A stretch of DNA of 64,000 nt from Armillaria gallica (taxonomy: Eukaryota; Basidiomycota; Agaricomycetes; Agaricales; Physalacriaceae), in the NCBI GenBank assembly GCA_037576215.1, contig JBANDB010000015.1, positions 1,550,001 to 1,614,000 on the forward strand, written 5' to 3'. The notes under the pieces are model-generated. The model ran no database searches. It was given only the letters and a program-made list of their open reading frames with translations, and was not told the origin of the DNA. The position numbers were made by a program, and so were the translations under genes. This document shows positions 8,444-36,975 of the stretch, piece by piece. The first letter of the stretch is position 1. Every line of letters starts with the position of its first letter.

Positions 8444-8469
8444 TATGGTGTCATTTTAGAGACAAAAAT
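8444..8469 (+). repeat. Left terminal inverted repeat
   Basis: It reads TATGGTG, a 7-nt variable spacer, then AGAGACAAAAAT. The reverse complement of 36,944-36,969 has the same two blocks with the same 7-nt spacing, for 20 of 26 matching positions. The outer block starts directly at the DUF6535 break point. Confidence 0.88.
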
Positions 8470-8499
8470 CACCAACCACTCACTTTTTTCACATATTGA

Positions 8500-8569
8500 G
8501 GTATTGAGCGGTATTCCCCGGTATTGGGAAGTATTACCCGGTAGTACTCGGTAGTACAGGGTATTAGAC
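8500..8569 (+). repeat. Left subterminal array, seven 10-bp units
   Basis: Seven consecutive units begin at 8,500, 8,510, 8,520, 8,530, 8,540, 8,550 and 8,560, each starting with GGTATT or a one-base variant (AGTATT, GGTAGT) followed by four free bases. A 10-bp period puts every motif on the same face of the helix. By analogy with other transposons, these are candidate binding sites for the element's integrase. Confidence 0.9.
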
Positions 8570-9800
8570 TCTTTTTATAGTGTCCGACTCGACTGTCCTC
8601 CACAGCCACCAGTCCCTGATCGCCAATCCCCATACCTACCATTACCTGACCCCCATCCTTTTCCCTACCACATAATACCGCGTGCTACCACACAATACCG
8701 CGCCACTGACAGTTATCGGCCGCCTCCTCGGCACAATCATGGCTTGGGTTCCGGGGTCCTACCACGCTCGCACTCAAGCCTAAGTCCGAACCTACCACAG
8801 CTTCTGGCAAGACTGTTATTGATGTAGTCGACTCACTACATATGTATTTGCCTTGCAAGGCCAGGGTTCGATTATCCTCACATTTACGCGTAGCTAACAA
8901 ACCAACTATATGTTCGACTGCATCTTTTCATTCAGATGGCCCAACTCATGGCGCAAGTACCTCACTTGTTCGCTCGGCTATTCTACACTCGCACCGACCC
9001 TCCGAGTTTGCTAGCATTCGTAGCATGTATGTTACTACAAAAGAAACATACGTCTAGTCGCACAGGTAACAAAAACAGATCCTCACCTGAAGAGATCAAC
9101 TCAAACGTGCTCTCCGGCTTTCATTTTTTCAGCATACGCATAGTGATCCCCAAGCCCCGAAGCCACCTATGGTCGTAGACAGCTGAACATAAATGAGTGC
9201 CAGCCATGATGAATGAAAGCTACTACATACTTGGTGCCTTTAAAACTTCAAGGTTAGCACTCGCTCCTTTCAATAATGCTCTCTGACTTCAAGATAGATC
9301 CTCTCCACCCCGCGGCATAACAACGGACCCACGACCAACATTCCCAGTCCGTCCTTTCACGAGATTCTCCCGAGGGGACCGAAAAGACAGTGACGGTAAG
9401 TGAATTTATGAGCTATTCACTCTCAGTCCAGCAAAGGACGCACACCCCTCACACACTAGTGAACAAAGGGCAGATCCTCAAGCGTAGGTGTTTGTCTCGA
9501 AGAGTGGCTGACAGATAGTGACCCGTAGGTGGTGAAAAAGTTCCGCCATCAGGACGGCCTTTGCCGGGTGGCAGTACGATAAGATTATCTGTGGTTCCTA
9601 GCTACTATTGTTGTCCCATATATTTTTCAAATGTATAAGATCCTGCCAGAGCCCTTTAGACGTTCAGAAATTTCAGGAAACAAGCCGTAAATTTACCTCT
9701 CAGTAACAACTCACTCTACTACTATTGTAGGCGAACATTCTGTGTGACCAACTGGTCACACCAATACTTTAATCTTTTCTCTTTTTCCCAAGCTATCATC
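8570..9800. other. Left element end, no supported gene; tRNA-like promoter remnant
   Basis: No convincing coding frame. At 8,848-8,875 there is an inverted pair TGCC/GGCA around TTGCAA and then GGTTCGATTAT, close to the B box of RNA polymerase III tRNA-type promoters; an A box upstream is weak. Two ACCGCG-containing copies of AATACCGCG lie about 20 bp apart near 8,675-8,703. Direct evidence for a functional RNA gene is lacking. Confidence 0.35.
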
Positions 9801-9803
9801 TGC

Positions 9804-10523
9804 ATGGTGCGTCTTTCCCTCAGAGTACCTCTATCTCTCCATTGTACTACCAGGTGAGCCTATTCTTTGCGTCGTCTCTGGACATCGAAATGCTGACCAA
9901 TCTCCCCAGGTATTCCGCACTCAACCTCACAACAATGTCACTCTGAGCCACCACCACTCTCATTCTTCGAATTCTAGGCTCTTGCATGTATGCCGCCATC
10001 CCATCGGACTCTCCAATGATTAGGGCTGATGGGCCTGCTAGTACAATGGTCATGTTCGCTCTCGTGGGTCTGGGGCGAATGGCTATGCAAGGGTGTGTGT
10101 CACTCCCTTACTACAGGAGGACTCGCTTCACTTTGTCGCAGTGCATACTTCAATATTGGTGTGGGGAACCCTGTCACCTCCCCATTCTTTTGCCCGCCTC
10201 ATACCCCAGCCAACCGCCTCTGCACCATCGTTTACCTCACACTCAATACGACAGCGGCTTCACACTCGGTCACTCTTGCATTGTATGTTCTTGGCCTGGT
10301 TCTCATCAATGAGGTTCGATGTGCCACCATGCGAACCATGCATCATAGCATCGTCCTGGGTCCCACGGCTGGTCGCCCATTCCCTCTGAGGCCCAACAGA
10401 ACCATTTCTGGAGTATTTCTGCTTTTCCAGACCAATAACTGCATTTTCGTGGTGGAGATTCACGTTTGCATCGTATGGAATGGCATCACTGTCGTCGGTG
10501 TCTTCATCCCCGGGTGGATGTAA
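9804..10523 (+). other. Possible spliced hydrophobic protein, unrecognised
   Basis: A 164-codon open frame at 10,029-10,523 contains hydrophobic runs (for example VTLALYVLGLVLINEV near 10,280 and FLLFQTNNCIFVVEIHVCIV near 10,430). A short ATG-led segment at 9,804 followed by a GTGAGC donor could be its first exon. No motif identifies a family, and other frames are also open here, so this may be noncoding. It lies in the left third of the element, away from the main gene block. Confidence 0.25.
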
Positions 10524-11929
10524 ATGACCATGCTTCTATTCATCCCAGTCAGTCTTCCCATTGCCATATTGCCATCAAGCTATAACTGACATGTATTCCA
10601 TGCATGCTTTGCGGTTTTTTGTGTCTTCTCATAACTGCTAGTTACATATCATCCATTTGTATGCTCCATACCTCTTATACCAGTCATTGTATTGTCTTGT
10701 TCTCAAAGCTATCTTCTTGCGATACCAGCGTCGTCAGTCTCAGCCTCCACTTCCTTGACGTCTGGTTTGATCTGCAGGAGGGTCGAAGCTATGTGTGTAG
10801 GGGCATAGAACTGAAAGTTATCTGCTCCTGAACAGCGGCATCTTTTCTTTCAGACACAGAACCAAATCTATCGTCCTGATGCCAAACGACATTGAGTTTG
10901 AAGCTACGCCTATCGAGTACTTCAGCACACGAGCTCAGAGCAAGGAGATAACATACTATACACCTTCCCTGTGTAAAACCCGTGCCAAGCGTCGCTGCCC
11001 ACTTTGGCGAATGACCATTGAGCAACCACAAGAACGAAATGCACGCTGAACTCTGTTTACATAGGACGTTCTGAGCATGGTCAACCAATCCTCCCCACAT
11101 CGTGTGCCAGCAGCCAAGCCTCCAAGTTCTCGTGACACATCAGGTGTGTTGTTGGTTGCCAGAACACGATACATTAAATCAGAATAAAGTTGGAGCTGCC
11201 CTACTGAGAATGAACGACGTAGACTGAAGGGACGGTAAGCACAAAGATACTGTGGTACTAGAAACCTGTCATATTGATGTTAGCCATCAAAGCCAAGGGC
11301 CGTTCTCTCCATCAACGAAGGGTTACACCGATTCTTTCAAGTCCTTCCCTCTGGCCACCCAAAAACCAGTTGCCCCGAACTTGGTCGTTGTCACCTTCTA
11401 GTTATCCTATCCTTTCCACTCATAGGAATGTCTTGAACTCAAATTTGTTGAAACACAGTGTTAGTCAAGGGAAGACGCAGGTCCACTAAACGGATTGGCA
11501 GATGGAAGGAGTGGGTATTGGAATGCCGGCAAGCCTTAGACAATCGAAAATGTGGTGGTGGAGATGAAAGAGCTGGTTGGCGCCAAGAATAGACACGCTG
11601 GAACATCCATACCCTTCACCATCTATCACAGAAGCATTGGCATCCACCAGACATCTAGCAGATCGATATCAGCTCAGCATCAGTCAGCAAGCATCAGCAT
11701 CAATCAGGCAAATATCAGCATCGAACGATGGAAAGATGTGCCGAGCCATTTGTCAGCTGTTGAATAGGCATAGCAGCGTCGGCATGGGAAATGGAATGGT
11801 GTGCTGGACAGCCCCCGCCGTTTGAGCTGTCGGGCATGCCTCTAAAGAGAAGCATCGGGCATCGGGGGGCGGCCCTCAAACTCCCTTCACAGCATCTGCC
11901 TAGTCCACCCTAATCTCACATCATCAACT
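10524..11929. other. Spacer within element
   Basis: Only short, mutually overlapping frames are present. The last 350 bases (about 11,575-11,830) share the SITEAL-type stretch with about 35,330-35,400 on the other strand, so the inverted similarity with the right end starts upstream of the gene at 11,930. I see nothing else supportable. Confidence 0.4.
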
Positions 11930-12508
11930 ATGCCACCCTCCACTCATACCTCCCCTGCTAACACCGCCAAAGCCCGCCGCGACGCTGTTCCTTATCCGGC
12001 GCAACCCCACTCCCACACAAAAACCAACTCTCTTAATCTCGGCCATGACAAACCACTTCCACCAATCCCTTCCATCCGTGATGCAAATGCTCTTGAAGTG
12101 TCTCTGCAATCCCAACGCGATGTCCTCCATCCCTCCTTCCAGACAACCGTGCTCACTGTTCAGACCAAGAGGCAACTCATTCACCTCAGCAAATTTTTGC
12201 ATCCTGGTTATCACACCTACGCTGAGCCTCACGAATTATCGTGCAACCAACGATCTCTCCCTCCCCCATACACTGCTGTTGATCCAACCGTGCCTCCATG
12301 CTCCTCTCGGACTGTCCGATGGGTCCATCGACCCATCAACAATCCTCACAAATGTCGCGGGAATATAGGCCTTGGTCTTGGTTATCCATTGGATGCGTTG
12401 TCCAATACCAACCATGTCGCCTCTACTCACGGACAAGCTCCAGTCGGCCGTCTCTGTTGCTTCTTCCGCAGGTGCAAGAAATGGCTCCAGGGCACCCGCA
12501 ACACATGA
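11930..12508 (+). CDS. Proline-rich protein with Cys/basic C-terminus, intact copy
   Basis: A single-exon frame of 192 codons starts MPPSTHTSPANTAKARRD. It has the proline motif DKPLPPIPS near residue 40, a second proline stretch RSLPPPYTAVDP near residue 110, and a C-terminal cluster GRLCCFFRRCKKWL near residue 175. A clear homologue lies inverted at 34,451-35,119, where the same three landmarks recur (DKPLPPIPH, LPPPYSAQDP, GRVCSFFCKCRQWL). Conservation of spaced landmarks between diverged copies supports coding. The PPxY motif (PPPY) is the class recognised by WW domains of ubiquitin ligases, and the Cys/basic tail could bind membrane; both points are inference. Family unknown to me. Confidence 0.7.
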   Translation: MPPSTHTSPANTAKARRDAVPYPAQPHSHTKTNSLNLGHDKPLPPIPSIRDANALEVSLQSQRDVLHPSFQTTVLTVQTKRQLIHLSKFLHPGYHTYAEPHELSCNQRSLPPPYTAVDPTVPPCSSRTVRWVHRPINNPHKCRGNIGLGLGYPLDALSNTNHVASTHGQAPVGRLCCFFRRCKKWLQGTRNT

Positions 12509-13166
12509 ACAGGTAAGGACGAGCCTCACTTGCGCTTGTCATGCTCTGACCATGGGTCACTAGATTCCGTATTGACGTCCATCCCACCACATCATCATCC
12601 ATACCAGCCGTTTTGATTCACATTACACTGTATCATATCCGTCGTCTTTACCTTGTAGTCAATGAAACCAGGGCAACCCGTCAAGGATACAGCGACATCT
12701 ACCGAATGTCCTGTCCATAGCCTAACATCACAAAATACTGAGGGTTTAGGTCACCTTGTTATTCAATAATCGTCATCGATTTGCTAATTCTATGCCAGCT
12801 TGTTAGTATTGCACTGATGTCATAAGACGGGGGAACTCACCAAGTACGTCAAGAGCCCTAGTTGCCAGCGCCGTGATAACCACATGCCTGCTAATGGAAG
12901 TTGGAAGAACATGGACATCTCTTTGCCCTGATCCATATCCTGAGCTGCATAGAGAAGATCAACATGTGGAACTTGTGCGCTGCATTCGGGGAACAGCTAT
13001 GTTAGACATCAGTACCAGATCAATCACAAAAATCATACAAAATCTTACACTATCTTACCTGTATTGTCAACGCTCACGTACCTGCCGAGCCTTTGGCAAC
13101 CTGAATGATAATGATCTTGGGTTCTACCACACATCAACACGGACCAACGAAGAGCTTCTCTCAGGG
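12509..13166. other. Spacer within element
   Basis: No frame here shows motifs, homology to other copies in the window or a consistent splice pattern. Nothing supportable beyond a possible shared 3' region between two converging genes. Confidence 0.4.
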
Positions 13167-14514
13167 TTACAATAGTTCGTACGAGTAGCTTACAACCTCT
13201 CTGGCTACCTTCACATTATTCCATTGTTGCCTCACCTCCATGAAACATGACCAGTACACCTCTGCGACCTCCTTGTGGTAACTATCCTCGTAGAAATAGA
13301 GGATGAGGTTGACCTGGCGAAGACTCGGGCATGCATTCCAGCGGATCTGACAGTCTACTCGCGAAATCCCCACCTGCGTCTCCAATGAGGGTCCTATCCA
13401 AGCCGCTGCCACAATGACATATGTATTCGTTGTATCCAAATCGAAAGCCCGTACGGTCTGGGACCAGATGTGAATGCCGACAGTTAGCGAAACCAGTCGC
13501 GGTGAATCCAAGTGGCCCAGTAAGTCACCCAGATGCTCCAGGTCCACCGCAGTGTCGGTGACCGACAAGCTGACCTCGGTCAAAGCTACACAGTCTGTCA
13601 TGTCATAGTAATGATTCCACTGCTGCCACTGGTGTTCTGTGGGATCCATTAGCCCTCTAACACAGCTCGACAGATGAATACAGACTCACCCAGAGCCAAG
13701 GTCAAGACCTCCAGGCACTCCTGGCTATCATCCACAATGTTAGTCCCAGGGTACCACCCCACAGCACCTGTCATTCCCACACACAGCTCCATCAGCCCTC
13801 TCGCATTGCGAAACCAATACAAAGCCCATTCACCTTCGGGCACATGTCTGGCATCCACCTCCAACCGACTCAACGTCGCTGGAAGCGTCAACGCTGACTC
13901 GTACTCTGCCTCCACTCCTACGCCCCTCTCAAAAATGGTTCCATGGCCCTCAATCACCAGCATCTGCAGGGCAGGTAGTGCAGCCAGGAACAAATCCAGC
14001 TCCGGGAACCAGAGCATGCAATGCTCCAACACGATGCTCTCCATCTGTGGCATCAGCAAGACATCCCTGACCCTCGTATTTACCAGTCTCATCGAACAAA
14101 TATTAGGTAGCTGAGCCAGCACCACTGCCAGCCCATCGGCTCGCAATGTACCAGCCTTCCATTGCAGCCACCTTGCGGCCGACGTGTCTCCCAAGTGGTC
14201 AATGTGAGAGAACCAGCAGACAGCCACCTCCAGGGAATGATACTCCCCTTCGTAATCTACTACCTCCACCAATTGCACTGCAATCTCCTCCGCCATTGCA
14301 TAGAAACACGCGGAAACTGGCAGTAACAGCCTTCCACCCTGAGGATCACCGTCACACACCTCCGCTACGATTCTCTTCAAGATATTGTCGGGTAGCTGCT
14401 GCAGTGAACATTAGCCTGCCTGTCACAACCCGCAGTTCGGACACTCACCTCTATCCAACTCTTGGAATGTATGGGACCGTTTCCTGCAGGCAGTTGACTA
14501 GCGGTCACGTTCAT
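13167..14514 (-). CDS. F-box/LRR-like protein, intact
   Basis: Three exons join in phase: 14,514-14,449, 14,398-13,690 and 13,654-13,167, giving 420 codons without a stop. The N-terminus has an F-box-like segment, QLPDNILKRIVAEV followed by LLLPVSACFYAMAEE (about residues 23-55). The rest is leucine-rich in the irregular way typical of Agaricomycete F-box proteins, for example LNICSMRLVNTRV-like and ALTLPATLSRLEVDARH segments. F-box proteins recruit substrates to SCF ubiquitin ligases through Skp1; the substrate here is unknown. It is head-to-tail with a second, broken F-box gene (14,632-15,911). One of four open cargo genes. Confidence 0.8.
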
Positions 14515-14631
14515 GATACACTATGAAAGCAAGGAAAGAAAGAGCCAACAAACGGCGCAATCCAGCAGCCCCCGCACGACCCAGCCCCACAGTCATGACA
14601 CATCTGTGCCAGCGCTCATCTGTTACGATTT

Positions 14632-18887: not shown

Positions 18888-20999
18888 TCATGGCTGAGGT
18901 TCCCACCCCATCTTCAAGGGGTGCTCGAGGTGGTGAGGTACGATAGGTGCCCGACCGAATTTCAGGAAGAACGTGTCACAATAATACCTCATAACCGCCA
19001 ACTCCAGGTGCTCTAGCTGCTCAGGGTCATACGTCTCGCGTTTGCGGGTGATCTCTGGAGGAGGATGGACCCACGATGCCATTACACGTCAAAGCGCACA
19101 CACGTACGGTGCACGATTCACCCAGATGGGATTGCCAAGGCCATGATTCGCACTTCCCGGGTCTATGATCCAACACAGATCTAGTTTATGAGTGGGGAAG
19201 CACAGGCCCAGGTGACGACTGTGTGCAGTTTGCTGAGCTTCTTCGTCCGAAGCTATCCCACACATGCGCACGTCCAAGGCTAGTAATTCCAGACAAAAGT
19301 TGAGCTTGCTCAGTTCCCACAAGATCGCTTGGATGTCATCTTGCAACAGGCGGTCCACGTTGATGTCTTGCCACTTTGCTTTCGCAGGCTGGTCCTGTCT
19401 GAGAGTCAACTCTCCTTGGCAGCCTGCTAAAAAGATGGACGCTCGCTCCTGTCTTTTTGCCTCTCTGTTGTTAACCTGGCTCGAGGCAGGGTCGTGATTG
19501 GTGGGGTTTTGCAGCCAGTCAAATTGAAGGAGCATTCGCCACGTCTGATGCAGAAGGACTGGCAGGTTAAAAGGAGGTGCCAGCAGCACGATCAGTCCCA
19601 CTTGTAATCGAAGCCATGCCAGCAGTACGATTTTCTGCTTCTCCAGGGTTTGGACACTTACAAACAGTTTGGGCTTGGGGAATGCATACCCAGACACGGC
19701 TACATCGGTGTGCGAAGGGTCAGCGTTGACTGCTAACAAACCCGCTTTCCAGGAGGGAATTATGGGGGCAGGTATGCATGTTCCGCAATGTCAAAGCTCG
19801 TTGGTAATGTGCGCACTTTCGATGCATGCTGGCCATGCCATCCATGACTAGGGACTGCGTCTGAGAAGGAGGTATGAGTATGCACATATTTTTGATGAAA
19901 TCTGGGTCCTACTCACAAGGCTGATATTGATGCGCTGTCTCTTGTGGTGGTGTCAGTAGAACAGGATGTTGCTGATGTACTCCAGGCATCCATAAGAATG
20001 GATTGGGCACGGTAAAATGTGATCGTGTGAATCTTTCAAAAGCTTGGTATTTTTTCTCGTCAGTAGCTGCACCGACATATACCTCTTGCAGGCACAGAGG
20101 GCAAGGCTCTAGGTCTACACACTCTGTACAAGGCGTCACTTTCACCGCACGATCAATCCGAGTCGCAGGGAGCACAGAGAGGGAGCGGAGGAGCCACACA
20201 GGAATTCCCGCCTTGAATAGCTCTTGCGCAACTGTGGTACTGGTGGTAAACGTGCTGGCGAGGTCGAATTTCGGCGCCAAGGGGGGGACCGCATTGGGAG
20301 AGTCTATGCATGGATGATAGAGTAGGTAATAATCCAGATATGCCCTTAACTCTAGTGCTAGTCTCTGTGTTTCCACCACACACAGACATAGACACTCGAA
20401 AGTCAGGGGAGAGCTTCCAGCTGCTCAAGAAACATGGGCAGCAGGCGGTGCTTTTCATTCAGGAAGGGAGTGACAGGAAGGTCGGGTCCCCTGACCACGT
20501 CCAAGAGAAGCTGGCAGCATGTCTTGAGTTTTTCCAATTCTTGCTTGTCCCATAGTCCTGGCCCAAGGATGAGAGATGAACCATCCAGCTCTTCAAAGTG
20601 GACACGGCTTGGTAATCCATAAAGAGGTCGGTAGGCGTTGCTGCCATGTGCAGGTTGGGTTGTAATGCATGCGAGATAAGGTCGTGTATTCATGTAGGGT
20701 TGGGGCCAACAGCACGGATCGTCATCCGCATAACAGTAGTTCTGATACATCGCCATCTCCTGGTTGACCCCCAGGGGCGGCGCGTATATGACTGAAGCAT
20801 TGGGCGACATGATTAACAGATCTTCCAGTTCGGTTGACACAGCTCCACATAGTCCATCCCAGGTGTGTAACACTATGGCACACATCAGAGACGTAGGAAA
20901 CGACGAGGCCTCTGCTCTGCCCCATGCACCTTCATTGGGAGCTCGACGATGCGTCAACAAGTCTGGGTTCTTGAGTATGTCTTGTAGAGTAGCTTCCAT
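18888..20999 (-). pseudogene. Large conserved mushroom protein of unknown function, broken
   Basis: From ATG 20,999 the frame reads EATLQDILKNPDLLTH... to FLEQLEALP (about 20,407). One C is missing there; restoring the phase continues LTFECLCLCVVETQRLALEL, so a 1-nt deletion is the simplest reading. The frame goes on through PVWLLRSLSVLPATRIDRAV and an intron near 19,915-19,760, then SGYAFPKPKLFVSVQTLEKQ, ILWELSKLNFCLELLALDVR, and RYYCDTFFLKFGRAPIVPHH. A TGA at 19,091-19,089 interrupts before RVMASW. These landmarks resemble a large family of Agaricomycete proteins I know only as hypothetical. Function is unknown; its place beside the integrase in this element suggests a role in the element's life cycle. 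Confidence 0.65.
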
Positions 21000-21423
21000 C
21001 TCCACTGGTCAGAGGTAGATACACCGAGTCTGTCTCAGCTGACAATGTCACATCTGAGAGAAGGAAATGACTGGGCTGTTGAATCCCGACAAGAGTGATG
21101 ATGAGTGGAAGACAGTGGTGAGCTATGAGAACGGGCTGATCCCTGAGACATGGCAGCGGCTGCACCGCCACAGCCATGGCATTGGTCGGCCGGGTGGCAT
21201 CTGAAATTTCACTTTGGATCCTCGGACCGGAGGCACTCAGAAAGAAATGGTAAGAAATTCGTCAGATTCTATCTCATTGCAACAGGTGTAGATACGACAT
21301 AATGGTTCTGTACCAGATGACTATCACTCTCAACTGGATGTGACTCCACCAGGCCCTTCACTTTTACCCGTGTGTGATCGATTATCACACCTGACTCTCT
21401 GTTCCTAGCTCTGGGGTCAGAAA

Positions 21424-22224
21424 TCATGTGTCCCAGTACGTGTTGTGTCTGTCTGTGAGCGCTTCTGCATCAGGCAGAAACCTGCTGATATCCTCAAGCA
21501 CCCGGTTGCAGATGGGGCGACAGAGTACAGGCTTTCTGCACGACAGACAAAGTGCTGGCATCCCCCTACCATTACTACGGTCTGCCACCTCAAACCGGCA
21601 GATCAAACATTCGATGTGGAAACTATGGCTGCACTCCAAACTGTGGTCGGGTCAGCTCATCCCCTCAGTAGTGCAAAGCCACTCACATGCATGCCTCTGT
21701 GGCCGGCATCTCACACATGAAGCATCATATAGCGTCAAAAATTTGGTCTCGTCTCTGTCACGAAATGGAGGGGTGGTTAGGTTAGTACAGCCAGGAGACA
21801 TGTCACTTGCAATGTACTCACCTGGCGCTTCTCCTGACACTCAGCTATGCCTTCTCGCGAGTGGCAGCTAGCTTGAATGTTCTCCTCCTTCAAGGCATTG
21901 ATCTCATCTTCAAGATCACGTACTTGCTGGTGCATACTATATTGTTCCTGGTGATTGGCCAACTGTCAGATGGACCTTACTAAGACTAGGCTGGTCTGCC
22001 TGACCTGGTAGTGCTTTACTCGCCACCAGTCTGCCTCGTTTTGACCTGCTTCTGCCTGTTCTTTTGCCTTCTTGAGCTCGTCCTTCAGGTCATCGACTTC
22101 CTGGGGATGAAAGTCAATATCAGGTCTGTCCTTCCAGTTTGTCTTGACTTCTCCTTGTACTCACCTCTAATAACTCACCTGCTCGGATCCACAATAGGTC
22201 CAGCTCAGATGTGGTATGGAACAT
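21424..22224 (-). CDS. Coiled-coil/RING-like protein, second copy
   Basis: From ATG 22,224 (MFHTTSELDLLWIRA) exons lead into a strong coiled coil: VDDLKDELKKAKEQAEAG and, after an intron, HQQVRDLEDEINALKEEN. Then come TKFLTLYDASCVRC and, after a further intron, LECSHSFHIECLIC and ALCLSCRKPV, ending at 21,424. CxxC, CxH, HxxC and CxxC match a RING order. The last intron does not keep phase with the simplest donor, so the model may contain a frameshift or an unusual splice site. It is a paralogue of the RING gene at 16,831 in the opposite orientation. Probable E3 ubiquitin ligase if functional. Confidence 0.6.
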
Positions 22225-22896: not shown

Positions 22897-24756
22897 TCAG
22901 AAGATAGCGGTGTCTGAGCCTGCATTTTGAGTCCTCAACAAGTAATTGCACAAATTCATGGCCTCCAACCATACCAGGTGATGCACATCCATCTGTCTCG
23001 ATGTAAGGTCCACTCGTTCGGCCAAAGCGGCAGCCAGAATATCCATACTCTCCCGGTTGAAAGGACATTCAGGCGGATCTACTGGTATGTGCGCCATCTT
23101 GGGGGGTGCCGCTGAAAATGGATTGGTTGCATCCCACTCATCTGGATTGTGCCGCCGGAGATGGTCCATGTATGTGGCATCGTCAATCACATCCCAGTCA
23201 ATACCAAACTCTTCGATGTCCTCCACTTCATCATCCACCAGCCACGCAAAGAGATCTGCAAGTCCTCATGGCCCATCTGCGATCATGCTGCTGCGAAACA
23301 TTTCTCTGGGAGTCCGGGGCGAAGAACAGGGCAATGTCATTTGATGGCTGTTCCACATCCCCATCCAATCCTGCGCATCCCTGTTGATCGCGTCCAACCA
23401 GAGATAGTGAACCAGCCAAATGTGGTGATGTTTGGACAGATCAAGACCGTAATGTACTTCCAGCTTGAGGAAAAAATCCTTCCACTTCATGCCAAAATCA
23501 TGCATGACGTCATACCAGAGTCGCTCAATCCAAATGTTGTGAATGCTCCTGCAACCGAGCCGTGTGAATGTTAATAAAGATGGCGCGAAAGCATGCCATG
23601 TACTTACCAGCCAAAGATGTACAAGCCGCAGCCGGGCCCTCGATTCTCCAACATCCATTCAGCGACACATAGATTCTCTGTACTGTGATCTCCGTGCAGG
23701 CGACTGGGAGTTCCATGTTTGGAGTGGCAGTGATGAAACAGTAACAAGACTGTGGTACCATGGTTGTTGTTGCTGGCCTGGATCCCGGTGACTAGGTGTG
23801 ATTTCCCGTCGACAAAGGTGTGGATGACAATCTTGTATCTGATCAGACCTACCGCCCAAGGCAGGTCAGTCATTGTAACCCTCGTTGCCATGGAACCAGA
23901 CTCACCGTGTTGACCATCATGGTGCCATAAAGAATTAGCACCGGCGACATGATAGCGTTTCCTATGAATATTGCGATCACCAAAGATGGCTGGGGCACCG
24001 TGCACATGAACGTAGGACTCTCTGAGGTGACGGTCAGGAACATGGTGCCCTCGATCATGTAAATACCCTGCAATTTTTCATTGTCCAAACTTGGGGAAGT
24101 CTTGCAGACATTGGCTGAGGAGCGCATCCAGTTGTTCATCGGTAAGTGTAGACATTGGTGGTCTGCCCCTACCATGGAAGTGTCAGCAAAGCTCACCATC
24201 CTCTCTGGCTGGTGCCTCATCTGTATAAACGGGATCGCCCCACGGGAGATGGCCATAGTCTTGATGTCATCGCCGAACACTGCGTCCACTGCAGTCGGCC
24301 ACCACGGAGACCTCTCGATAGGCACTGTCACCGGACTCCCTGAAGCTCTGCAACAGATAGTTCGGCTCGATCTCGATACACGGTCGACCCCGCTTTCCCA
24401 TGCGTACACGCCTACCTGCGGTGAGAACAGGTCTGGAGTCTGGCGGGTCGTTACACTGGTGAACGGCTGTGTCGAGGGCCTCCACCATGTAGTGGATGTT
24501 CTCTTGCAAGGTCGCATACTCAGCTGCAGGAAATTGTGCTTGGTGCTGACATAGGATAGGATCCTTGGCATCAGCCAACTTCCAGCTCACAGGAAGGACG
24601 ACGTACCATGGCAGCATCGTCCATGAAGCAGAGGACATCATTTCTGGCTCAGTCCAGTTCTTCCCATTGACTGCTTTGAGTACATACAGTCACAGTGGTC
24701 CATCAATGGAGGTCTATATAACCCTGTCGCAGGTGGCTGAGGGGGTCATTCAACAT
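22897..24756 (-). pseudogene. Integrase with rva_4/rve-type DDE core (element transposase)
   Basis: Exons 24,756-24,607, 24,518-23,906, 23,848-23,608 and 23,548-22,897 join in phase to 551 codons. In order: a helix-turn-helix-like part (GRPCIEIEPNYLLQSF ... VADCSGRSVRR), a linker with DEQLDALLSQCLQDFPKFG, HVPDRHLRESYVHVHGAP, then the catalytic core: NSLWHHDGQHG (first Asp, 23,918), VIHTFVDGKSHLVTG, SRLHGDHSTENL (second Asp, 23,690) and SIHNIWIERLW (Glu, 23,526), 34 residues between second Asp and Glu. The tail has HIWLVHYLWLDAINRDAQDW and PREMFRSSMIADGP. Such integrases cut and join DNA ends. Six in-frame TGA codons (24,705; 24,651; 24,269; 24,185; 24,080; 23,268) make this copy dead; several replace Arg in relatives. 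Confidence 0.92.
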
Positions 24757-25426
24757 GATGGAAGAGAGGGGAGGTCCATGTCCAGTGGTGGTGGAATATA
24801 AGTAAGGGAGCCCGACAGATAGGAGGGCGATCCAGAGTCCGCTAGGCCGAACGAGTGTGACGCCGTCATAACCGGGCCGTCCTCACCAATGATGTCGAAT
24901 GAGAACCTCGCAAGACAGTACTGTATTGCGGTGCCCAAGGCTGGGGGGGAACCAGGCAGAACGGCACTGAGGAGGGGGTCGCTGTGCGATCTGATGAGTC
25001 AGCAGTGGTCATATGGTGCTGCCAGCACACGAGCATCAAGGGTCACCATGATTCATTGAATCAAATTGTCACTATGGCCATTCTCCAACCATCATACAGG
25101 ATGGTGACAGTCCTGTCACCCTCCCTTGGCTCAACGACATCGATGTAGCCAAGCAACATCTTCAATCATATATGCACATGTGACTACACTCAACTTCAAC
25201 ATCGTCGTGACCCAGCAGCTCACATTTAGCATACTCGCTGTTGTTCACAGAAGATAATTGCGACATCCAACACTCACACACAAGAAGAAAACTGGACTTT
25301 TCATTGCAATGGGGCCTGGGCCAAATGCCTTACTTAACCTGGACTTCACCATCCCATTCCTGCGCTCCTCTCCCCCAAGAACAGCAAGGTCAGTTCATTT
25401 ACTTGTTACCTCTGGTCGATTGAGCC
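24757..25426. other. Intergenic region upstream of the integrase
   Basis: No supported gene. The region lies before the integrase start and after the stop of the next minus-strand gene, so it should hold the integrase promoter. A short minus-strand open frame at 24,750-24,938 has no homology support. Confidence 0.45.
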
Positions 25427-27284
25427 TCACACTTCACCCAGCCTCTTTCGTATTTCCTTCCCAGTGTCATTCATGTGCCCCAAGAGCATGGTGACAGTAT
25501 TGTACTCTGCCGATGAGGTATTGCAGTATGTCAAACGAGGACCCAAGACGGTATCCCCTAGGAGAGCCTTGAGGTGTTGCTTGAAGGTTTTGTCCTGGGG
25601 GGTAAGTTTATCCTCTGCGGCGGCGCACAAGGAATGGAGGGTGTGGTGGGCATTGCTGATATGGGACATGTGATTATTGGTGGTATTGAATGAGCCAATG
25701 AGCGTGTGACCTATATTATGGCGGTGGATCCAGTACGATTTCTTCTGGAATGTGAACTCAATCGTCTGGTTCCCAGTAGGGTAGAGAGCTTTGTAGATGA
25801 TATGGAGCAAACGATCGTTGAGGAAGGCCATGTAAGCAGTGCCATACTCTCTGCTTTCCTTGTGTACCCTATGATCCTGGATGTCAGCAGCAAAATGATC
25901 GGTCAGCAGTTCATCCAACCAGTTGATGAACAGTTGATGAACTTGGGGTCCTCTGGTACTGCCTGTGTGGATGACAATGACGATGCCTGGGCTGGGCCGG
26001 GCCTGAACGCTTGTGCCGAGTGGTGCTGAACGTGCGTCTTCTGTGGCTTAGCCATTGTCACATTGGATCTATGCAAGATTTCTGAGTTGACGTGGGACTC
26101 TTGCAATAGAGGAAGCTCCAACAAATTGGGGGTCAACATCTGAAGAGATGAATGTAAGTGACATTACCCAACCTGATTCAACCTGGACTGAACTGACCTG
26201 AGGATAGATATACATGGCATACATCATTCATGGTGCCTCCGCACCGATCTCTGTCAGCATGGCAGGCGGGGTAGTGAATCTGGGAAGGTGACTCATCATA
26301 CCACGGGCAGGATTCTCCACCAGGCCGAGTTGCATGAAAAACATGCTGCTCATGAAATTTTGGTGCACCCCGAAGACTCGATGACAAGTACCCACACAGT
26401 ATTCGACTGGGTTGTCGACCACAGCATCATTGAGCCAGCCACCCAAAGTGGTGTCGGGTCACCTCATATAAGAGAGGACCTCTGCATATTCGGGACTGGC
26501 CTGTGAGGGAGTGAAGCGTTCTGTGAGGACATAGCACTTCAAATGGGTTACGTAGAAGAGGACAAAAACCAGGGCTTCGCCAGGTGTTTTGAGGTGTGCT
26601 AGGTGGGAATCAAGAGCTGCTGGAGATGAGGAATGGGAGGCTGTGAAACTGTCCGGGAGCCAGTGTAGCACCACGTCATGGTCAAAACTATACCCTTCAT
26701 ATGTGTCCATCCAATTCTCTTCATCAGCGGCAACTGAGGAAGGGGGAGAGGGAGTATGCACTCAACGATCCACGAGCGGATGCAGGGTAGCTTGCACAAG
26801 GTCGCAGAGCTGCGCCACACCCATCGTTTCGGTAATGCTCCAGTTTCTCACTACAAGTGAGTGTCAGCCAAACACACCCCCATGGTTTCATCAGTCTAGC
26901 GCTTACAGTGATGTGGTACCTCTCCAGTGAACTCGGGAGATTGTTCATCCTCGGTATCGCTTGCGATCTCGATGGGAGTTGGACCTGTGAGAACTAGTCA
27001 GATCAGAACGCTCGATGTGTAATCAATACCCCGTCTGCAGCTGTGGTACCACCATCCTCAGTTGTGGCCTCGATGCCTGACAGGGTTGCACCCGATGTGC
27101 TCAGGTCATGGAGCGTCTCTGCGTAACTCACCATCTCATCGGCCAGCTGGGGTGGCCTAATGGTGCGTTGACTATGACAGGGTCCTGGAGGCACCTCAGG
27201 AGCTGATGGGAGCGGCTCCTTTTTCTTTCTCATGCGCTTAGGTGGGGTAGAGCATGCTGCATTGGTGGAGTGTCGTTTGGCCAT
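25427..27284 (-). pseudogene. Nuclear-type protein of unknown function, broken
   Basis: ATG 27,284 starts MAKRHSTNAACSTPPKRMRK with a clear basic nuclear-localisation-like cluster. A phase-consistent intron (donor GTACCA) leads to PTPIEIASDTEDEQSPEF, a hydrophobic-acidic stretch resembling a SUMO-interaction motif. The next exon runs through ENWMDTYEGYSFDHDVVLHW and PGEALVFVLFYVTHLKCY, and the last exon ends KEIRKRLGEV. Three TGA codons interrupt the third exon (26,764; 26,461; 26,230). A perfect 11-bp tandem duplication at 25,920-25,941 shifts the frame; counting it once restores a continuous frame KFINWLDELLTDHF. I do not recognise the family. It is a neighbour of the integrase on the same strand. 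Confidence 0.65.
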
Positions 27285-27592: not shown

Positions 27593-30500
27593 TTAAGCTA
27601 CTATGTAGGTAAGCAGACTGACACAGCATCCACTGGCGCATTCAAGCTGACAAATACTGTTTGATTGAACACAGACATTGCGCATGAAAGAAATGGTAGG
27701 AAGGATGATCCATGTCGGAGTCTTTTGAGAGAGCATATCGGCTAGCTCAGGAGTGAAGTAGATGTCAGCCGACCCCAAACACATATGCAGATGCATTGAT
27801 GTTTCTCACTGGGAACGTACAGAGACCGTAGGGTTAGTAGAGGAGGGTGAGTGAGGGAGGTCAGGCATACCGCGTCATTTTGTTTAGCAAAGGTGCAATC
27901 GAACTGGACAAAACCCAGGTGAGCCTGCCTCCTAGCACACATGTACTGTATTGTGAAGACTCACTCGAATCTCCCACATAGGTGCTGCTGGGGGTCAGGG
28001 CAGAGCTCAAGCAGCATCCAGCAACAGGCAGGCCTGCACCAAGGGATCGTCTTTCTCTTGCTCCCATTGTTCCGTGGTCACTAGCTCCCTCTTGCTTGCG
28101 AGTGGATGCCTGACACCCCAAAGATAGGACTCCAGGCAACTCTTGAAGAGTAGGATGAGCGAACATTCATAGATATCCACAGGCAGGCTGCGGCGACTGT
28201 TCAACTGGTAGACTAGGTGGGGAATAACATCCTCGACCATTACAAACAGTTGAAACAATCGCTGCAGCAACGGTATGGTTGCAAAATGGTTTGTTATCTG
28301 AGAGCAAAACAGGGGATCGGCGTTTAGCAGGAACAGAACAGATGCATCAGCCACGGCCGGCTCACATCAATAAGTTTGTTTGCAGGAGTGCCTGCACTCT
28401 CTCATGCTAATTCCCAGTCAAAGCCACGACGCAATGCCTCCAGATCAGGGTGTGGCCAATAGATGTCATCATTGAGAAGCATACGGGCATTTAGGCAGGC
28501 AGTCAGAGCGCGGTGGGATATCTCGTTGTGAGGCTCCACAAAGTCCACGAGCTACAGACATGCGCTCAATGGTCCAATTCGCTAGATGCATTTGATAAAA
28601 GGCTTACCTCTACAGAGAGAGGTTCCACGAAGAGTCCTTGGATTGCGGCGCATTGGGCACAGTGGTGATCTATGTGAGTTTCACGACCCACTTGATACCA
28701 ACAAGCTACCGTGTTCGTATCAGATTCAGAGAACGCGCGGATCTGGTCGAGACTTAATTGTCCAAAGGCATCCAACCCATCAATCAAGGCTAACACCACC
28801 CACAGGGACACCACAAAACCTTGTCCCAACTGGATGAGAGACAGGGCTAATAATCTGCCTGAGACAGTCATATAGTGGGTGCGAGCATCAATAGGCATGC
28901 GGGTACTCCCGAGTATGAATGTGTACGTCCCATCGCCTCGTTGTTTCCAGTAACGTTTACCCTGAACCATGAGCTGCAGAGTGGCCAACAAACAGCTATG
29001 CTCCAGTCCCAGACTGAGAGCTGGACCTCCTCCTCTATCTGATCCTTCCCTACTGTCAATCATCAACTGAGTGAGTTACAGAACACCTGCAGAGACAGAG
29101 GAGCTTACGTGTTATAGAGTCACATATATGCCTGCTGTTCAAAGAGTTGCAGTATATGGAAGTCTCCATCGCTCAGACTGAATCGTTGAATCGATGGGAA
29201 GGGGCAAAGATCAAAACTCCCAGGAGGCCGCTCGACTGTGTGCTGGAACCAAGACCATAGCACCTCCGCGATGTCCTCCATGGTGTCACCTGCTATCCTG
29301 TAGCCAAGATCAGTGTAGCACTGATCGACTGTGAGGTGACAGGCTCTCTGCCAATTGAAGATAATCATGTGATGAGCATCATGCGTCCTAGGCATGGGAG
29401 ATGGCTGTCGAGTCATCCGCTCAGGGCCATTAGGAGTTGAATGTCTCCATGCGGGTGTATGTGGGCCTACTGTGAGTGTGACCTTGATGGGTGGTGGTGA
29501 CCAAGAGGGGAAGCGAGGGCTAGCATGATGGGTGGGAGTGTTAGGTAGTGCTCTGCCGATCTCATCGTCAGAACTGTCGAGAGGCTCCGCCTGAGGACAT
29601 CCTGGTAGGCACTTAACCTGTTGGGGCCAGGCAGGTGGTGCATCCTTGCCGCGACTGGCTTTGCGGTAGAATCCCATGCCTGCTGCGTGCAATACACGAT
29701 AGCAGAAGCACGCGTGCAGTTCGTCCTGTTCGACAATTTCTTTGTTGGGTCTCACAAAGTACTGTATGGACCCTTTGATGTCGCTGAAACAAGGAGCTAA
29801 TAGAGTCAGATCAGTAGACACTTGACGAAACATCACCGTGAACATACCAACAATGAGGAAGAATCTGTTCTCCTGGCTGGCGGGCAGTGGCTGGAACATC
29901 CGGGTCAGGTTCACCAAGGCCAAAGGCATGATGACGGCGCCGCTGAGACTTCTGGCTGGTTGGAAGGAGTACATATTGCCCCTTTGCTGGGGAGCCAGCC
30001 AAACCCATGGATAGCTAGAGTTATAAATGACGTCCTCCTTGTTGGCAATGAACTCGTCGAGTCCTGGAACCTCCAACCTACCCACTTTGACTGCTCTACA
30101 AAGTTCACTATCAATTTGCTGCAACAGTGGCAGTATTGGCATAAGGGTAATGCGATGCCCCAGGTGGTTAGGAATGAACACCTTGTCATAGGCAGTCCTG
30201 ATTTGGTCTGCACGCAAAGCTAACTGATGGTAACCCCACACGTCGTCCGCGTGGTCCGGTTCTTCCTAAAGGAGTGACTCAGCTATGATAGCAATGGCCA
30301 CGAGGGCGCGAAAGGACGTGCTTACAATGTTGGGTGCAATCATGATGTCAAGTTCGATGCGACTCTTTTGGGGATTGATGCTGGCCGGACGAGCTTTGCG
30401 TTTACCTTTGGCATTGGCTGATGGAGGGCCTGTTTGGGAGGCAGTCTGGTGCTGGGGTAGTGTTCGTTGTGCCATGTCCATTCGTAGGGTGTTGGCGTCT

Positions 30501-32070: not shown

Positions 32071-33100
32071 AGCAAGCATAGAGGAGATTATACATATGGA
32101 TATCGCGTAGAATATGAACAAAATCCCATCGGAATGCTATTCACATTGATGCACCCCCTCTCATTCACTTGCATTCCTCGACTGAAGACACGTACACGGA
32201 GCGAAACTGCTTGTTTAGTTGTGGATTTGTTCAAATTGTGCAGTTATTCCCTTTGAAGGAAGTGCACGAGCCATTTTGTCATCTACGATGATGGGGGGGG
32301 GGGGGTAGTATGAATGGCCGATTTTGACTTGATTGAGGTGTCCACCTGGAGCGTCTGGTTTGGTTTCTTGAGTGTACAACTCTGTATGTGAACTTGCTAC
32401 GATATTAAATCAAGCTCTCACACCAGTTTTCAGTGAAATCTATGACATGGAATATCTAGACTATTCGCAGCCTTCTTGCCATGCTGCCTCAGTGCAGTAT
32501 GATCACCTCGGTGAGGCAGTCGTGCAGGCGTATCCTGCTAAGACTGCTGGGATATGAACACTGGCTCTTTTACTTTCGAATAGGTGAATACAGATTCGTT
32601 GGCACTCCATAATCAAGGAGATTCTGAATCCTAGTGTTCATTTACCCACCTCGTTGGTGCCTCGGTAATTGAAGACCATATATTTCGTGATTACTGAAGA
32701 GAGAAAGGTATTCGTTGCCAGTTTGGAGCCCGGAGATTCGTGTCTGCTGACGTTGTTGATCGTAGTGGGAAACCAATGTACATGAGAGATGCACAAGGTA
32801 GGATATCTTCACAGTCTCATGCATGTAATAGATCAATCCCGATCACAACAAATGACAACATTCCAACCACAAACTGGTCTCAAATACACTATAGGATTGA
32901 CACTCAGAGAAGCAGGTGCCTGCCACAACATTTTAGCTTCAACAGTTCCACTCAGTGAGATACTGGCAGACGAGGGATAATGGAAGACACCATGAGAATG
33001 GTCCTATCATTTGAGGTATCGGCATCCTGAAATATGGAAGAAGCAAGGTAACGAGACTTGTGTTCACTGGACACATATTGAATGCTGACATATGCTCGTC
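32071..33100. other. Spacer with a 13-G homopolymer
   Basis: No supported gene. A run of 13 G lies at 32,293-32,305, a site prone to slippage and sequencing error. The 32.4-33.0 kb part may contain decayed 5' sequence of the GT32 remnant that follows, but I see no motif proving it. Confidence 0.4.
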
Positions 33101-33470
33101 CTCCATTATACCTTCTCCTCACATATCCCATCATTCTCCCTTAAACCATCCCAATCGGCGTCTTCAACAACTTCATATTCTCAACAAAAGGGCACCCATT
33201 TTTTGCTCAGCTCGTCCACAACCTCATGACATTTGATCATTCCTGGTTCCTCAGCTGCCTCACCATTATGTTCTCTACCAGACTTATGTTGCTTTCCCTA
33301 CAATACACCATCTGGACTTCCTCCCCCGCTCAGCGACCCCATCCGTATCTTGCTGAACTCCCTCTACAGGAAGAATGCCAAGGATGGTGAAGTGCTGCAT
33401 TCATTTTTCTCACACTACTTCACCAGATGGCCAAGACGAAACCTAAAGCCAGACTAGTATGTCTATCTTC
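33100..33470 (+). pseudogene. GT32 glycosyltransferase, C-terminal fragment
   Basis: In the right frame this reads TIPIGVFNNFIFSTKGHPFF, then AQLVHNLMTFDHSWFLSCLT and IMFSTRLMLLSLQYTIW, matching the part of OCH1-like (GT32) mannosyltransferases that follows the DXD motif. The related segment 33,676-33,780 repeats its first 105 bases in direct orientation. The fragment lacks the catalytic part and has frame breaks. GT32 enzymes add mannose to sphingolipid or glycan acceptors in the secretory pathway. Confidence 0.7.
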
Positions 33471-33499
33471 ATGGTACCAACACTGTCAAGCTAACCTCC

Positions 33500-33790
33500 A
33501 GACAGTGAATACGTGTTCTGGACAGACGAATCTTCTTGAAAAGTTATAAACGAATAGTACCACTGGTTTCTATGGACGTACAATGGATATCATTTTCTGG
33601 TACAGTGTGATCCAGTACTTTGTCTTGCACCACTACGGAGGTGTATACTACGATGTCGACATTGGCTGCTAGCATCCATTATACCTTCTCCTTGCATATC
33701 CCATCATTCTCCCCTAAACCATCCCAGTCGGCATCTTCAACAACTTCATGTTCTCAACAAAAGGGCACCCATTTTTTGCAACGCATGCTG
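33500..33790 (+). pseudogene. GT32 glycosyltransferase, catalytic-core fragment
   Basis: Reads EYVFWTDESS, a stop, WFLWTYNGYHF, then VIQYFVLHHYGGVYYDVDIGC and, after a stop, TIPVGIFNNFMFSTKGHPFF. The YYDVD segment is the DXD metal-binding motif of GT32. In-frame stops make it nonfunctional. The two fragments suggest a tandem duplication of part of one gene followed by loss. It is the only metabolic-type gene remnant in the element and may be captured host sequence. Confidence 0.75.
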
Positions 33791-34119
33791 TGTCACGGTA
33801 TACTGAATATACCGGGTGTCTGGTAGTTCGGAAATTTGATAAGCTCAATATGATAGCTGTACTCTCAAGTGCAAACTGGAATCTAGATCGACACCCGATT
33901 TATCTGGGCAATTTAGCAGTTTCATGGAGGAGTTGATATGACTGGTTACACCTCGGTCATTCACTATGAAGAAATTGATATTTGCGTATCTTGGGACTCT
34001 CATGTCTCATATAAGTTGGGTCTATGTGCGCGATCCGAAAGAAGACGAGGATGGTTGGTTGGGAATGGGGTACGTATACTGGCTTGAATAAGGGTACGCA
34101 ACTTGCTGATGAGTACTAA

Positions 34120-34390
34120 CTTCAAGAAATGTGTTGGATGCTAAAAATGTACAGTAGATATCAATTGGACTGGAGCAAATATACTGCAGGTGAAGACATG
34201 GTGATAAAAATACAGGTGTGTACATCCTTGATTGGTGGGAAACGAGTGGCTAACGAAAGGAGAGTGATAAACAGGTGTGAGGTTACTGACTTCAAGATAC
34301 GTGTAGGAGGGGAAACATGTACAGTAGAGATGAACTGGACTGGAGGAATATACTACAGGTAAAGACATATTTATGATACAGGCATGCAAG
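34120..34390. repeat. Diverged direct repeat, two units
   Basis: Two units, about 34,122-34,225 and 34,289-34,390, share the order ACTTCAAG, ATGTACAGTAGA, ACTGGA, TACTGCAGGT or TACTACAGGT, and a trailing ATACAGG. They are about 165 bp apart. No function is visible. Confidence 0.6.
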
Positions 34391-34450
34391 TGGGATCAAG
34401 ATGTTAGGATGGGGAATATGACTGGTGGGATGCGCTTAGGGCGACTCTGG

Positions 34451-35119
34451 TTAAGGGTGATCAGAGGATGAGGCTACCAAACGTGGCTGGCTCTGACATG
34501 AACATTGGTTGCGGGTGCCTTGACTGCGAAGCCATTGCCTACACTTGCAGAAGAAACTGCAGACACGACCGCCTGCACCCTGTCCATGGTTGGATGCGAA
34601 GCGGCTGCTGTTGGATAACACGTCCAATGGATAATAGGGGGCCAGGACTATTGCAGGATAGCTCACATTGCCGCGATGTTTGTTTGGGTTGTTGACGAGT
34701 TGATGGAGGAAGTGGATGGCACAAGAGGAACATGGAGGCATGCCAGGATCCTGTGCACTGTATGGTGGAGGGAGCAATCATCAGTTGCAGGGGCACTCGC
34801 GAGGCTGAATGAGGGTATGAGGAAGAGGGTATCGATGTTTGCCTCCCTGAAGAAGATTCGTCTTGGTCTCAACGCTGTAAGGGGATGGGTAGAAGGAGGG
34901 ATGGATGATGTCGCATTGCCGTTCGAGAGATGTTTGAAGGTCGAGCGCACACTGGACATGTGGAATGGGTGGAAGTGGTTTGTCGCGCCCCGAATTGAGA
35001 GGACAGGAATCGGTTTGGGAATGGGTTTGAACTTGGACACGATGTTTCTCCGGAAAAGGTGCATTGTTGGGCAGGACAGTGGTGACATTTGCAGGGTAGG
35101 GATTAGTTGAGGGTGGCAT
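34451..35119 (-). pseudogene. Proline-rich protein with Cys/basic C-terminus, decayed copy
   Basis: From ATG 35,119 (MPPSTNPYPANVTT) the frame keeps the landmarks of the gene at 11,930: DKPLPPIPH, LPPPYSAQDPGMPP and GRVCSFFCKCRQWL. Two adjacent TGA codons occur just before LLPPPY (about 34,785-34,780), where the intact copy has an Arg codon CGA at the matching place. The copy is in opposite orientation to the intact one and lies 1.9 kb from the right end, mirroring the left copy 3.5 kb from the left end. Confidence 0.72.
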
Positions 35120-36815
35120 GATTGACGATGTGAGGTTGGGGGTGGTCTGGGGAGAGGCGGTGAAGGGAGTTTGATGCCCGCTCCCCAATGCCTGAAGCTT
35201 CTCTTTCGATAAATGCCCGGTGGCTGAAATTGTGGCGGCTGTCTGGCTCATTATGCTGTCTGCGATGCTGATGAACTTTGTGAGATGCCGCAGTTCCTCT
35301 GTAACAGGCCGAAGTTTTTTGAGAGATGCCGATGCTTCCGGGATTGATGCTGATATCTATCTCCAATGCTTCTGTGATGGAAGCATGGTGCATCTGTGAT
35401 AGAGGGTGGAGGGTATAGGTAATTGAGCCTGTTTTCTGCACTGCCATGGCAATAGGTGGTGTAGTGCTAAAGGATGAGCTAACTTTGTCCTATTGAGCAC
35501 ATTCTGACGTTCATTCAGTGCAGGATCGTTGAGGAGGGTTGGATGGAGGACAACATGGTACATACACTGATGCGTTGGGCCTTGCCTCATGATATTTGCA
35601 TTCAGATCCGTTGCTCGACTGACACACATGACACAACAGAGTATGTATGCAATGGGAGAACTCAAGGCTACCAGACCAAGGCACGCACAGATTGGCTACA
35701 CTCAGTGAGCAGGTCAAGTTCGGGTTCGTAATGCCATCACAACGCGCCGTCTAAGCATCCAGAAGAGGAACAAATGTGGGCCTGAGACAGCATATCAACA
35801 TCCAGCGAGCGAGGAAGGATGTGAGCGAGAGCTCGTGGATAGGTGTTCCAGTTGCATTCTGAGGGCCAATAAGGTGGGTGACCCAGTTTTATATGTCTGA
35901 GTCTTATATTGTGTCTCATGGTCAACTAAGACGCTAAGTTACTGGGTCGAGGTTTCACTTCATACACACTGAGGAGGTTGGCACCCAGCCTGTTGGGTCG
36001 TTTCCAATGTTGGCAACATGTTGAGACATTGGAGGTAAGTATGTACTACGTTCACTCTGGGAGACTCAAACTAGAATGTGGCTGTTTGGTTGAAGGGACG
36101 TGGTCGTGTGAAGGTGCCTTTCAGAGACCGACCAACAAGTTGTGTTGTGACGGCATGGCACAGGCGAGTCCTGGCAAGAACACTGGTTCATAAGTGTTTG
36201 GAATGTGTTTGGTTGACGACATGTTCATGGACTTGCTAGGGTTGAAATCAAGGCTGGATCATGAAGACTATGATTAGTAAGGTTGGGTGTGATTTAACAC
36301 TGGTTTTAATGGTGCTAAGGATCACTGATAAGAAGTTCTTTTCTGCTTCTCCATTGTCAAAGGGACAGACAGACTAGACTTCATGGATCAATATCGGGCT
36401 CTTCACGGTTGATACACAACTCGACGAGATATCAGATAGATGGGAGTGGGACATCTAAGTCAGCAAGTTTGTTTTGTAGGCTCGGGTGGAACAAAATGAA
36501 AATTTGAAGAGATTTTGATACGTATGGCCTACGTAAGGAGCGGTGATGGGGCTGACAGTCAACTATGGATGCGATGAGGACTCACCGACAATGTTGAGCA
36601 AGAAGAGCCATAGATGGGGGTTGTCATTATGGGAGAACAGGCACAACAGTGGTGGTCAGGATAAGGGGAACAGTGTTGAAGGAAGATAGCAGTCTAGGCC
36701 TGGGACCCCAGATACTCAGGGGCATGGCCGGCGGAGTTATGTCAAGAGATGGGAAGATAAACAAGGTAGGTGGTAGTGAGAGGTATTGGGAGGGTGAGGG
36801 TTTTTTTTCCTTGAG
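35120..36815. other. Right inner flank of element, no supported gene
   Basis: Part of 35,330-35,400 resembles sequence upstream of the left proline-rich gene. The remainder shows only short unsupported frames. Likely noncoding terminal sequence. Confidence 0.45.
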
Positions 36816-36940
36816 TGATACCTTATAATACTTGCGAATACCAGCCAATACCGGAGAATACTGAGTAATCCCACACAATACCCGGTAATACTCAGTAATA
36901 CTTGGTAGTACCTGGTATTACCAGGTATTATCAGGTATTT
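36816..36940 (-). repeat. Right subterminal array, about thirteen 10-bp units
   Basis: AATAC or a close variant recurs on the plus strand every 10 bp from about 36,817 to 36,907 (ten units), the reverse complement of the left GGTATT motif. Three more units next to the end (36,914, 36,924, 36,934) carry GGTATT on the plus strand at the same 10-bp spacing. The array therefore faces inward like the left one, with an outer group in the other orientation. Confidence 0.9.
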
Positions 36941-36943
36941 GGC

Positions 36944-36969
36944 ATTTTTGTCTCTGTACCAGCACCATA
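36944..36969 (-). repeat. Right terminal inverted repeat
   Basis: The reverse complement reads TATGGTG, seven variable bases, AGAGACAAAAAT, matching the left repeat at 20 of 26 positions with equal spacing. The six bases outside (CTACAC) resemble the left flank (CTCAC). Confidence 0.88.
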
Positions 36970-36975
36970 CTACAC

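Follow-up and report, generated by a model that had tools for sequence, protein, structure and literature searches.

Giant transposons carrying cargo genes are well described in Ascomycota, where they are known as Starships. The subject here is a 28,526 bp element at positions 8444-36969 of a 64 kb stretch of contig JBANDB010000015.1 of Armillaria gallica (the whole stretch is termed the window, and unprefixed coordinates refer to it); the element most probably belongs to the IS3EU type of DNA transposon, as a giant form that bears cargo, and this copy of it is taken to be dead. Rust IS3EU elements have 6-bp target duplications, TAYGG..CCRTA ends and inverted repeats of >30 bp, and their TET-carrying families include an alpha-kinase (excerpts of PMC12730594); IS3EU/GingerRoot elements are given TA..TA termini and duplications that are usually 6 bp, a length also given for Polintons (excerpts of PMC10045372). 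Pieces of IS3EU are counted in Phlebopus (11 and 34 pieces totalling 7 and 30 kb; excerpt of PMC12411881). Searches of the open-licence PMC literature turned up no published giant IS3EU, and among the papers listed for giant cargo elements in Agaricomycetes none concerns such an element by its title.

The ends of the element are exact to the base, and the following features define them:

8444..36969, no strand assigned, whole element, 28,526 bp, set by termini, duplication and paralogue junction
8438..8443, + strand, left target duplication, CCTCAC, from flank sequence
36970..36975, + strand, right target duplication, CTACAC, from flank sequence, 4/6 alike to the left copy
8444..8469, + strand, left terminal inverted repeat, 26 bp
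36944..36969, - strand, right terminal inverted repeat, 26 bp
8500..8569, + strand, left array, 7 decamer units GGTAWTnnnn or variants in 10-bp phase
36823..36939, - strand, right array, about 12 decamer units in 10-bp phase, both motif orientations interleaved
7635..8456, + strand, left part of the host gene (DUF6535 match, then element start), the right part resuming at 36976

The 5' end reads TATGGTG from 8444 and the 3' end CACCATA up to 36969; the 26-bp terminal inverted repeats, read by eye, are identical at 20/26 positions and related arrays follow them. The inverted repeats reported by a first-pass annotation of this DNA are real. That annotation also had the host gene halting at 8,443 and resuming at 36,976, with halves that match a paralogue. 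The gene matches DUF6535 (E 1.8e-8), and its flanks, when joined from 8443 to 36976, do keep register when aligned to the paralogue near 48.36 kb (CCTCAC+CTTGCAC against CCTCACCTTACAC), with zero bases missing if one 6-mer is counted as the duplication. The degraded CTCAC/CTACAC flanks, first taken as a duplication of 4-6 bp, do hold one, now bounded as 6 bp, CCTCAC/CTACAC. The segment is confirmed as a mobile element sitting inside a DUF6535-family gene, as the first-pass annotation had it for an integrase-type giant transposon; ends, duplications, copies and empty sites all bear this out.

Further copies with the same termini and duplications, and empty sites, had been proposed as a check; both were found in the same genome, an 86-Mb assembly of 28 contigs (here C1, C2, C4, C12 and so on, the window lying on C15). 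The whole genome was searched for TATGGTG-7N-AGAGACAAAAAT with ≤2 mismatches, which gave 30 places compared with 1 for the pattern read backwards; the 18 termini with 0 or 1 mismatch were used, and the 12 with 2 mismatches were excluded, 8 of those being one sequence, AATGGTGGGAATTAAGAGACAAAAAA, which recurs exactly at eight places on seven contigs and is perhaps a piece of an unrelated repeat. Six independent insertions with both ends were recovered including that of the window, the other five being:

C2:6611789-6640267, large copy, 28,479 bp, about 94% alike to the window element, duplication CGCCAG/TGCCAG
C4:3049820-3077603, diverged large element, 27,784 bp, duplication GCACAC twice
C12:675580-681702, short relative, 6,123 bp, duplication GTATAT twice
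C1:1902486-1906153, short relative, 3,668 bp, duplication CCCTAT twice
C2:1392335-1394372 (C2-small), short relative, 2,038 bp, duplication GCCACC twice

The duplications are thus alike at 6/6 positions in four insertions, at 5/6 in the large C2 copy and at 4/6 in the window; because the five additional insertions are independent and carry such ends with 6-bp duplications, a chance pairing of the window ends is ruled out. Three single termini are unpaired (C2:6195951, C15:1005178, C18:1287734). Empty sites were sought with joined flanks, the duplication being counted once, and 40 of 150 candidates were scored (45 rows). Among the candidates scored, at least 39 places align across the junction with the joined flanks of the C4 insertion (97% at best), and one, C1:1778726-1778921, aligns with those of the C1 insertion at 95%. 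C7:6018123-6046654 was rejected as a second independent insertion, sharing the flanks of the window copy at 99.9% over 1.5 kb on each side; the two copies differ mostly by short indels, window 1500-5000 and 50000-53000 match C7 at ~100% with equal spacing, and window 1500-53000 corresponds to C7:6002097-6053597, within ~62 kb of the end of that contig. The C7 copy is the same insertion, present perhaps as an allele, perhaps through duplication, perhaps because contigs overlap in the assembly; it was dropped from the counts of independent insertions, as was C1:2035196, where the right flank of the C1 element recurs.

Of transposition enzymes the element has just one that can be recognised, an rva_4/rve DDE integrase, in keeping with the type first proposed; it lies with two companions on one strand:

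22900..25008, - strand, decayed integrase gene, rva_4 at 23278-23954, three catalytic motifs near 23924, 23693 and 23529
21388..21651, - strand, RING-like frame, 28% over 76 residues (E 9e-9) to a frame of the C4 element
19912..20681, - strand, protein B, companion of the integrase, 50% identity to its counterpart in the C4 element

The element was scanned with Pfam in six frames, stop codons being written as X and matches reported at E up to 0.01. The family rva_4 (PF24764) matches the - strand at 23278-23954, split across two frames (E 2.3e-18 and 1.5e-14), and the catalytic motifs are still readable, spread over different frames. A second match, Gly_transf_sug near 33604 (+ strand), scores 23.1 bits for a cut-off of 23; beyond these two there is no Pfam match at E ≤0.01 in the six frames. 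Genome-wide, rva_4 matches 45 times. With the C4 integrase piece as query 197 proteins were matched and 120 listed; the best among the matches listed is from Armillaria gallica (85%), and the named relatives among them are from Agaricomycetes fungi. Viral contigs were not confirmed among the integrase relatives. Seven relatives were checked for catalytic spacing: D-56-D is present in 6/7 (the seventh is without the first motif) and D-32 to 34-E in 7/7, and the first D lies at residue 234-256 in 6/7, inside the 100-300 residues from the N-terminus used as a criterion for IS3EU. In three full-length relatives IS481 (E to 9.4e-13) scores above IS3, while a 267-residue piece from C5 scored neither. 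A structure model of one relative (mean predicted local distance difference test score, pLDDT, 75.7) gave 11 PDB fold matches at E ≤0.001, to retroviral intasomes, IstA and Tn7-like TnsB; a sequence profile of the integrase compared with PDB sequences gave 0 matches. Three closely similar full-length rva_4 genes of another group (L033, L035 and L036, at C18:860971, C4:1837151 and C2:6396757) have one in-domain TGA each, perhaps an intron or decay.

The arrays that follow the termini are a distinctive mark of these elements, in which decamers keep an exact 10-bp phase and hold almost the same register from family to family. For the forward motif (GGTAWT and close variants, picked after inspection of the data), the six insertions offer 12 ends, of which those of C4 and C1 were covered over 100 bp; all 68 of its matches fall into a single phase of 10 at each end. 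Its offset from the terminus is 7 mod 10 in 9 ends and 6 mod 10 in the remaining three, the left ends of C15, C2 and C12, which are related. Reverse-type motifs are phased less strictly than forward ones, mostly but not wholly in one phase. Lag-10 identity lies above all 5000 shuffles at the 6/6 ends tested (C15, C2, C12), and the left array of the large C2 copy is 30 bp longer, equal to three extra units. A four-unit phased pattern matches 97 times genome-wide compared with 1 in a backwards control; 86 of the 97 sit ≤300 bp from 17 of the 18 termini, 9 fall in two right-end-like clusters (C2:6690 kb, C5:5505 kb) and 2 elsewhere. Within the left array of C2-small (L072 178-218) there is a second array with a reverse-type motif at 10-bp spacing. 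The inward-facing subterminal arrays of the first-pass annotation are real and more regular than it claimed, except that the right end interleaves two orientations. The arrays are predicted to be binding sites on one helix face. The ends of Tn7 and IS21 carry multiple transposase sites, and their TnsB and IstA are, by the fold matches, of the rve fold; this is a likeness by analogy only, as the units here are 10 bp and no ATPase partner was identified for the element.

The integrase, the RING-like frame and protein B form a core common to two diverged large elements, those of the window and C4. The RING-like frame and protein B lie downstream of the integrase on the same strand, in identical order in the C4 element, and the distance from the integrase match to the start of B is 3.06 kb there and 3.16 kb in the window; the RING match of the C4 element falls below the Pfam cut-off. 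Protein B matched no Pfam family, its profile found one match among PDB sequences (E 0.36), and its structure model has a mean pLDDT of 64.4. It has 10 relatives, the named ones from Desarmillaria and Armillaria. Outside the C15, C7 and C2 copies, 15/21 B loci have an rva_4 locus no more than 40 kb away, against a mean of 0.48 and a maximum of 4 in 2000 draws under uniform placement, a null that ignores repeat clustering; most of these B loci belong to other rva_4 groups, with different spacing and orientation. Beyond the core, the C4 cargo differs or has diverged too far for detection.

Taken together, TATGG..CCATA termini that fit TAYGG..CCRTA in six insertions, 6-bp duplications in the same six and a DDE transposase akin to IS481/IS3 are the published marks of IS3EU, which is why the element is read as IS3EU and not as new chemistry; the "distinct class" of giant basidiomycete transposon first proposed is not supported in that form, given these marks, at least as they appear in the excerpts of PMC12730594 and PMC10045372. 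What sets the element apart is its size, gene set and phased end arrays. The inverted repeats are 26 bp with 20 positions alike and related arrays following, where those of rust TET families exceed 30 bp; the element is 28 kb with another gene set and decamer arrays, a comparison made with excerpts that give no family sizes.

Several observations weigh against this assignment. Membership in IS3EU, though strongly indicated, would rest on published termini, duplication length and enzyme type rather than on a tree against named IS3EU enzymes, and the NCBIfam scores for IS481/IS3 are far under the curated cut-offs (best 48 bits against 224). The window duplication is only 4/6 alike, and neither difference is a CpG change. 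Alpha-kinase has 3 matches in the genome and none near an rva_4 locus, although it marks only the TET-carrying rust families and not the whole superfamily. In a search that scored 37 of 96 candidates, four other cargo frames had matches in the C15, C7 and C2 copies but none in C4; of the gene set whose recurrence in further copies had been proposed as a check, the integrase, RING-like frame and B recur in C4 and these four were not found there. The joined flanks of C2-small, C12 and the large C2 copy gave no empty-site match among the 40 of 150 candidates scored, which does not imply absence. Movement itself was not observed.

The strongest competitor, and still an unlikely one, is that giant transposons of Agaricomycetes form a superfamily of their own, marked by the integrase, the RING-like frame, protein B and the phased arrays, with ends that converged on those of IS3EU. 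A gene set unlike that of rust IS3EU, the recurrence of protein B near rva_4 loci and the lack of a published giant IS3EU in the literature searched speak for it; the joint match of ends, 6-bp duplications and IS481/IS3-like DDE enzyme to published IS3EU speaks against it. Descent from a Maverick/Polinton or other virus-derived element that has lost its polymerase and structural genes is very improbable. Large size, an rve-type integrase and 6-bp duplications are shared with Polintons (the last by excerpts of PMC10045372), whereas the six-frame scans of the element found no protein-primed polymerase B, other Polinton gene or virus-like gene, though the equally decayed integrase reached 67 bits. 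Polinton ends begin with AG; those of the element begin with TATGG. Starships resemble the element in giant size, cargo and insertion into or beside genes, and differ from it in using a tyrosine recombinase, where the element has a DDE integrase; the element also has terminal inverted repeats and duplications fixed at 6 bp. The captain recombinase (DUF3435) was not found in the same scans. Maverick and Starship identities were rejected on these scans, and the first-pass statement that neither tyrosine recombinase nor PolB is visible agrees with them. An assembly artefact in which the gene is not truly interrupted is scarcely credible, for although the region stands twice in the assembly, with the same segment and flanks over at least 51.5 kb on C7, five insertions with different flanking DNA end at exactly the same bases, and they have duplications and, for two of them, empty sites.

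The copy in the window is decayed and most probably dead. Between the C15 and C2 copies there are 1589 mismatches, 1554 transitions and 35 transversions (ratio 44), and 1405/1589 differences are at CpG; a host duplication in the window whose copies are 94.2% alike differs by 246 transitions and 78 transversions (ratio 3.15), 99/324 of these being at CpG, and three shorter host paralogue pairs have ratios of 1.69-2.04. Outside the element, observed/expected CpG in the window is 0.94-0.98; it is 0.57 in the window copy and 0.69 in the large C2 copy, with 0.80 and 0.85 for two stretches of the C4 element, 0.93 for C12 and 0.22 for C2-small. In the parts read, the C4 element is less decayed than the window copy. 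C2-small is the most CpG-depleted yet has a perfect duplication; depletion is therefore not a simple clock. Both slow deamination of methylated CpG and an active process like repeat-induced point mutation (RIP) fit the decay; the genome has 5 DNA_methylase matches, and in repeats of Marasmius oreades ~0.75 of reads per CpG site are methylated (excerpt of PMC9674265). CpG depletion also runs past the right end to ~39.5 kb (36970-39500) and is seen at 48000-50000, around the 3' part of the paralogue; this may have spread from the element, or it may belong to these genes themselves.

The large cargo of the first-pass annotation is present as DNA, with frames broken by CpG mutation and almost no Pfam matches. 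Its other frames are:

25430-26163 and 26231-26863, - strand, two unnamed frames upstream of the integrase
29123..30265, - strand, longest open frame of the element, 381 amino acids, 4 relatives found
13652..14410, - strand, F-box/leucine-rich-repeat-like frame by eye, no Pfam match

Both named relatives of the longest frame are from A. nabsnona; one relative of this frame and one of protein B sit on 37,729-bp contigs, probably a single contig bearing a further copy of the element. When the C15 and C2 copies were compared by codon position to find coding frames, 1 frame reached P < 0.01; the test was abandoned because nearly all changes between them are CpG transitions. A 105-bp direct repeat (33102-33206 and 33675-33779, 94% alike, 573 bp apart) is present, and the C2 copy is without 573 bp from 33107, as if one repeat and the intervening stretch had been lost or duplicated; an inverted 0.7-kb pair (11807-12525 and 34485-35243, ~66% alike) is apparently a duplicated cargo gene.

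A cut-and-paste route would account for these features. The rve-fold DDE integrase would have recognised the TATGG..CCATA ends, probably with the aid of arrays in which binding sites recur every helical turn, and inserted the element at a staggered target so that 6-bp duplications were left; the RING-like gene, protein B and other genes would have been carried between the ends. Relatives as short as 2-6 kb, whose ends are of the same kind, would also have been mobilised, presumably in trans, and copies would later have been hit by CpG-confined C-to-T change, most likely through cytosine methylation.

A broader proposal, more tentative than the IS3EU assignment and somewhat short of even, is that giant transposons with a DDE integrase form a guild, widespread in Agaricomycetes and so far undescribed, that would be to mushrooms what Starships are to Ascomycota, with a conserved core of integrase, RING-like protein and B and with helical-turn-phased arrays that would form a terminal nucleoprotein filament; hosts would answer with CpG-restricted hypermutation, which is said not to occur in Agaricomycotina. 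The CpG-confined divergence, with its ratio of 44 where a host duplication of similar identity has 3.15, bears on the question of a RIP-like process in Agaricomycetes. The 10-bp phased end arrays, near-constant in register across diverged families, offer a clean handle on the biochemistry of IS3EU transposases; a chemically different giant kind of transposon in mushrooms, for which one genome shows six insertions as well as empty sites, would make gene movement by these elements in basidiomycetes directly testable.

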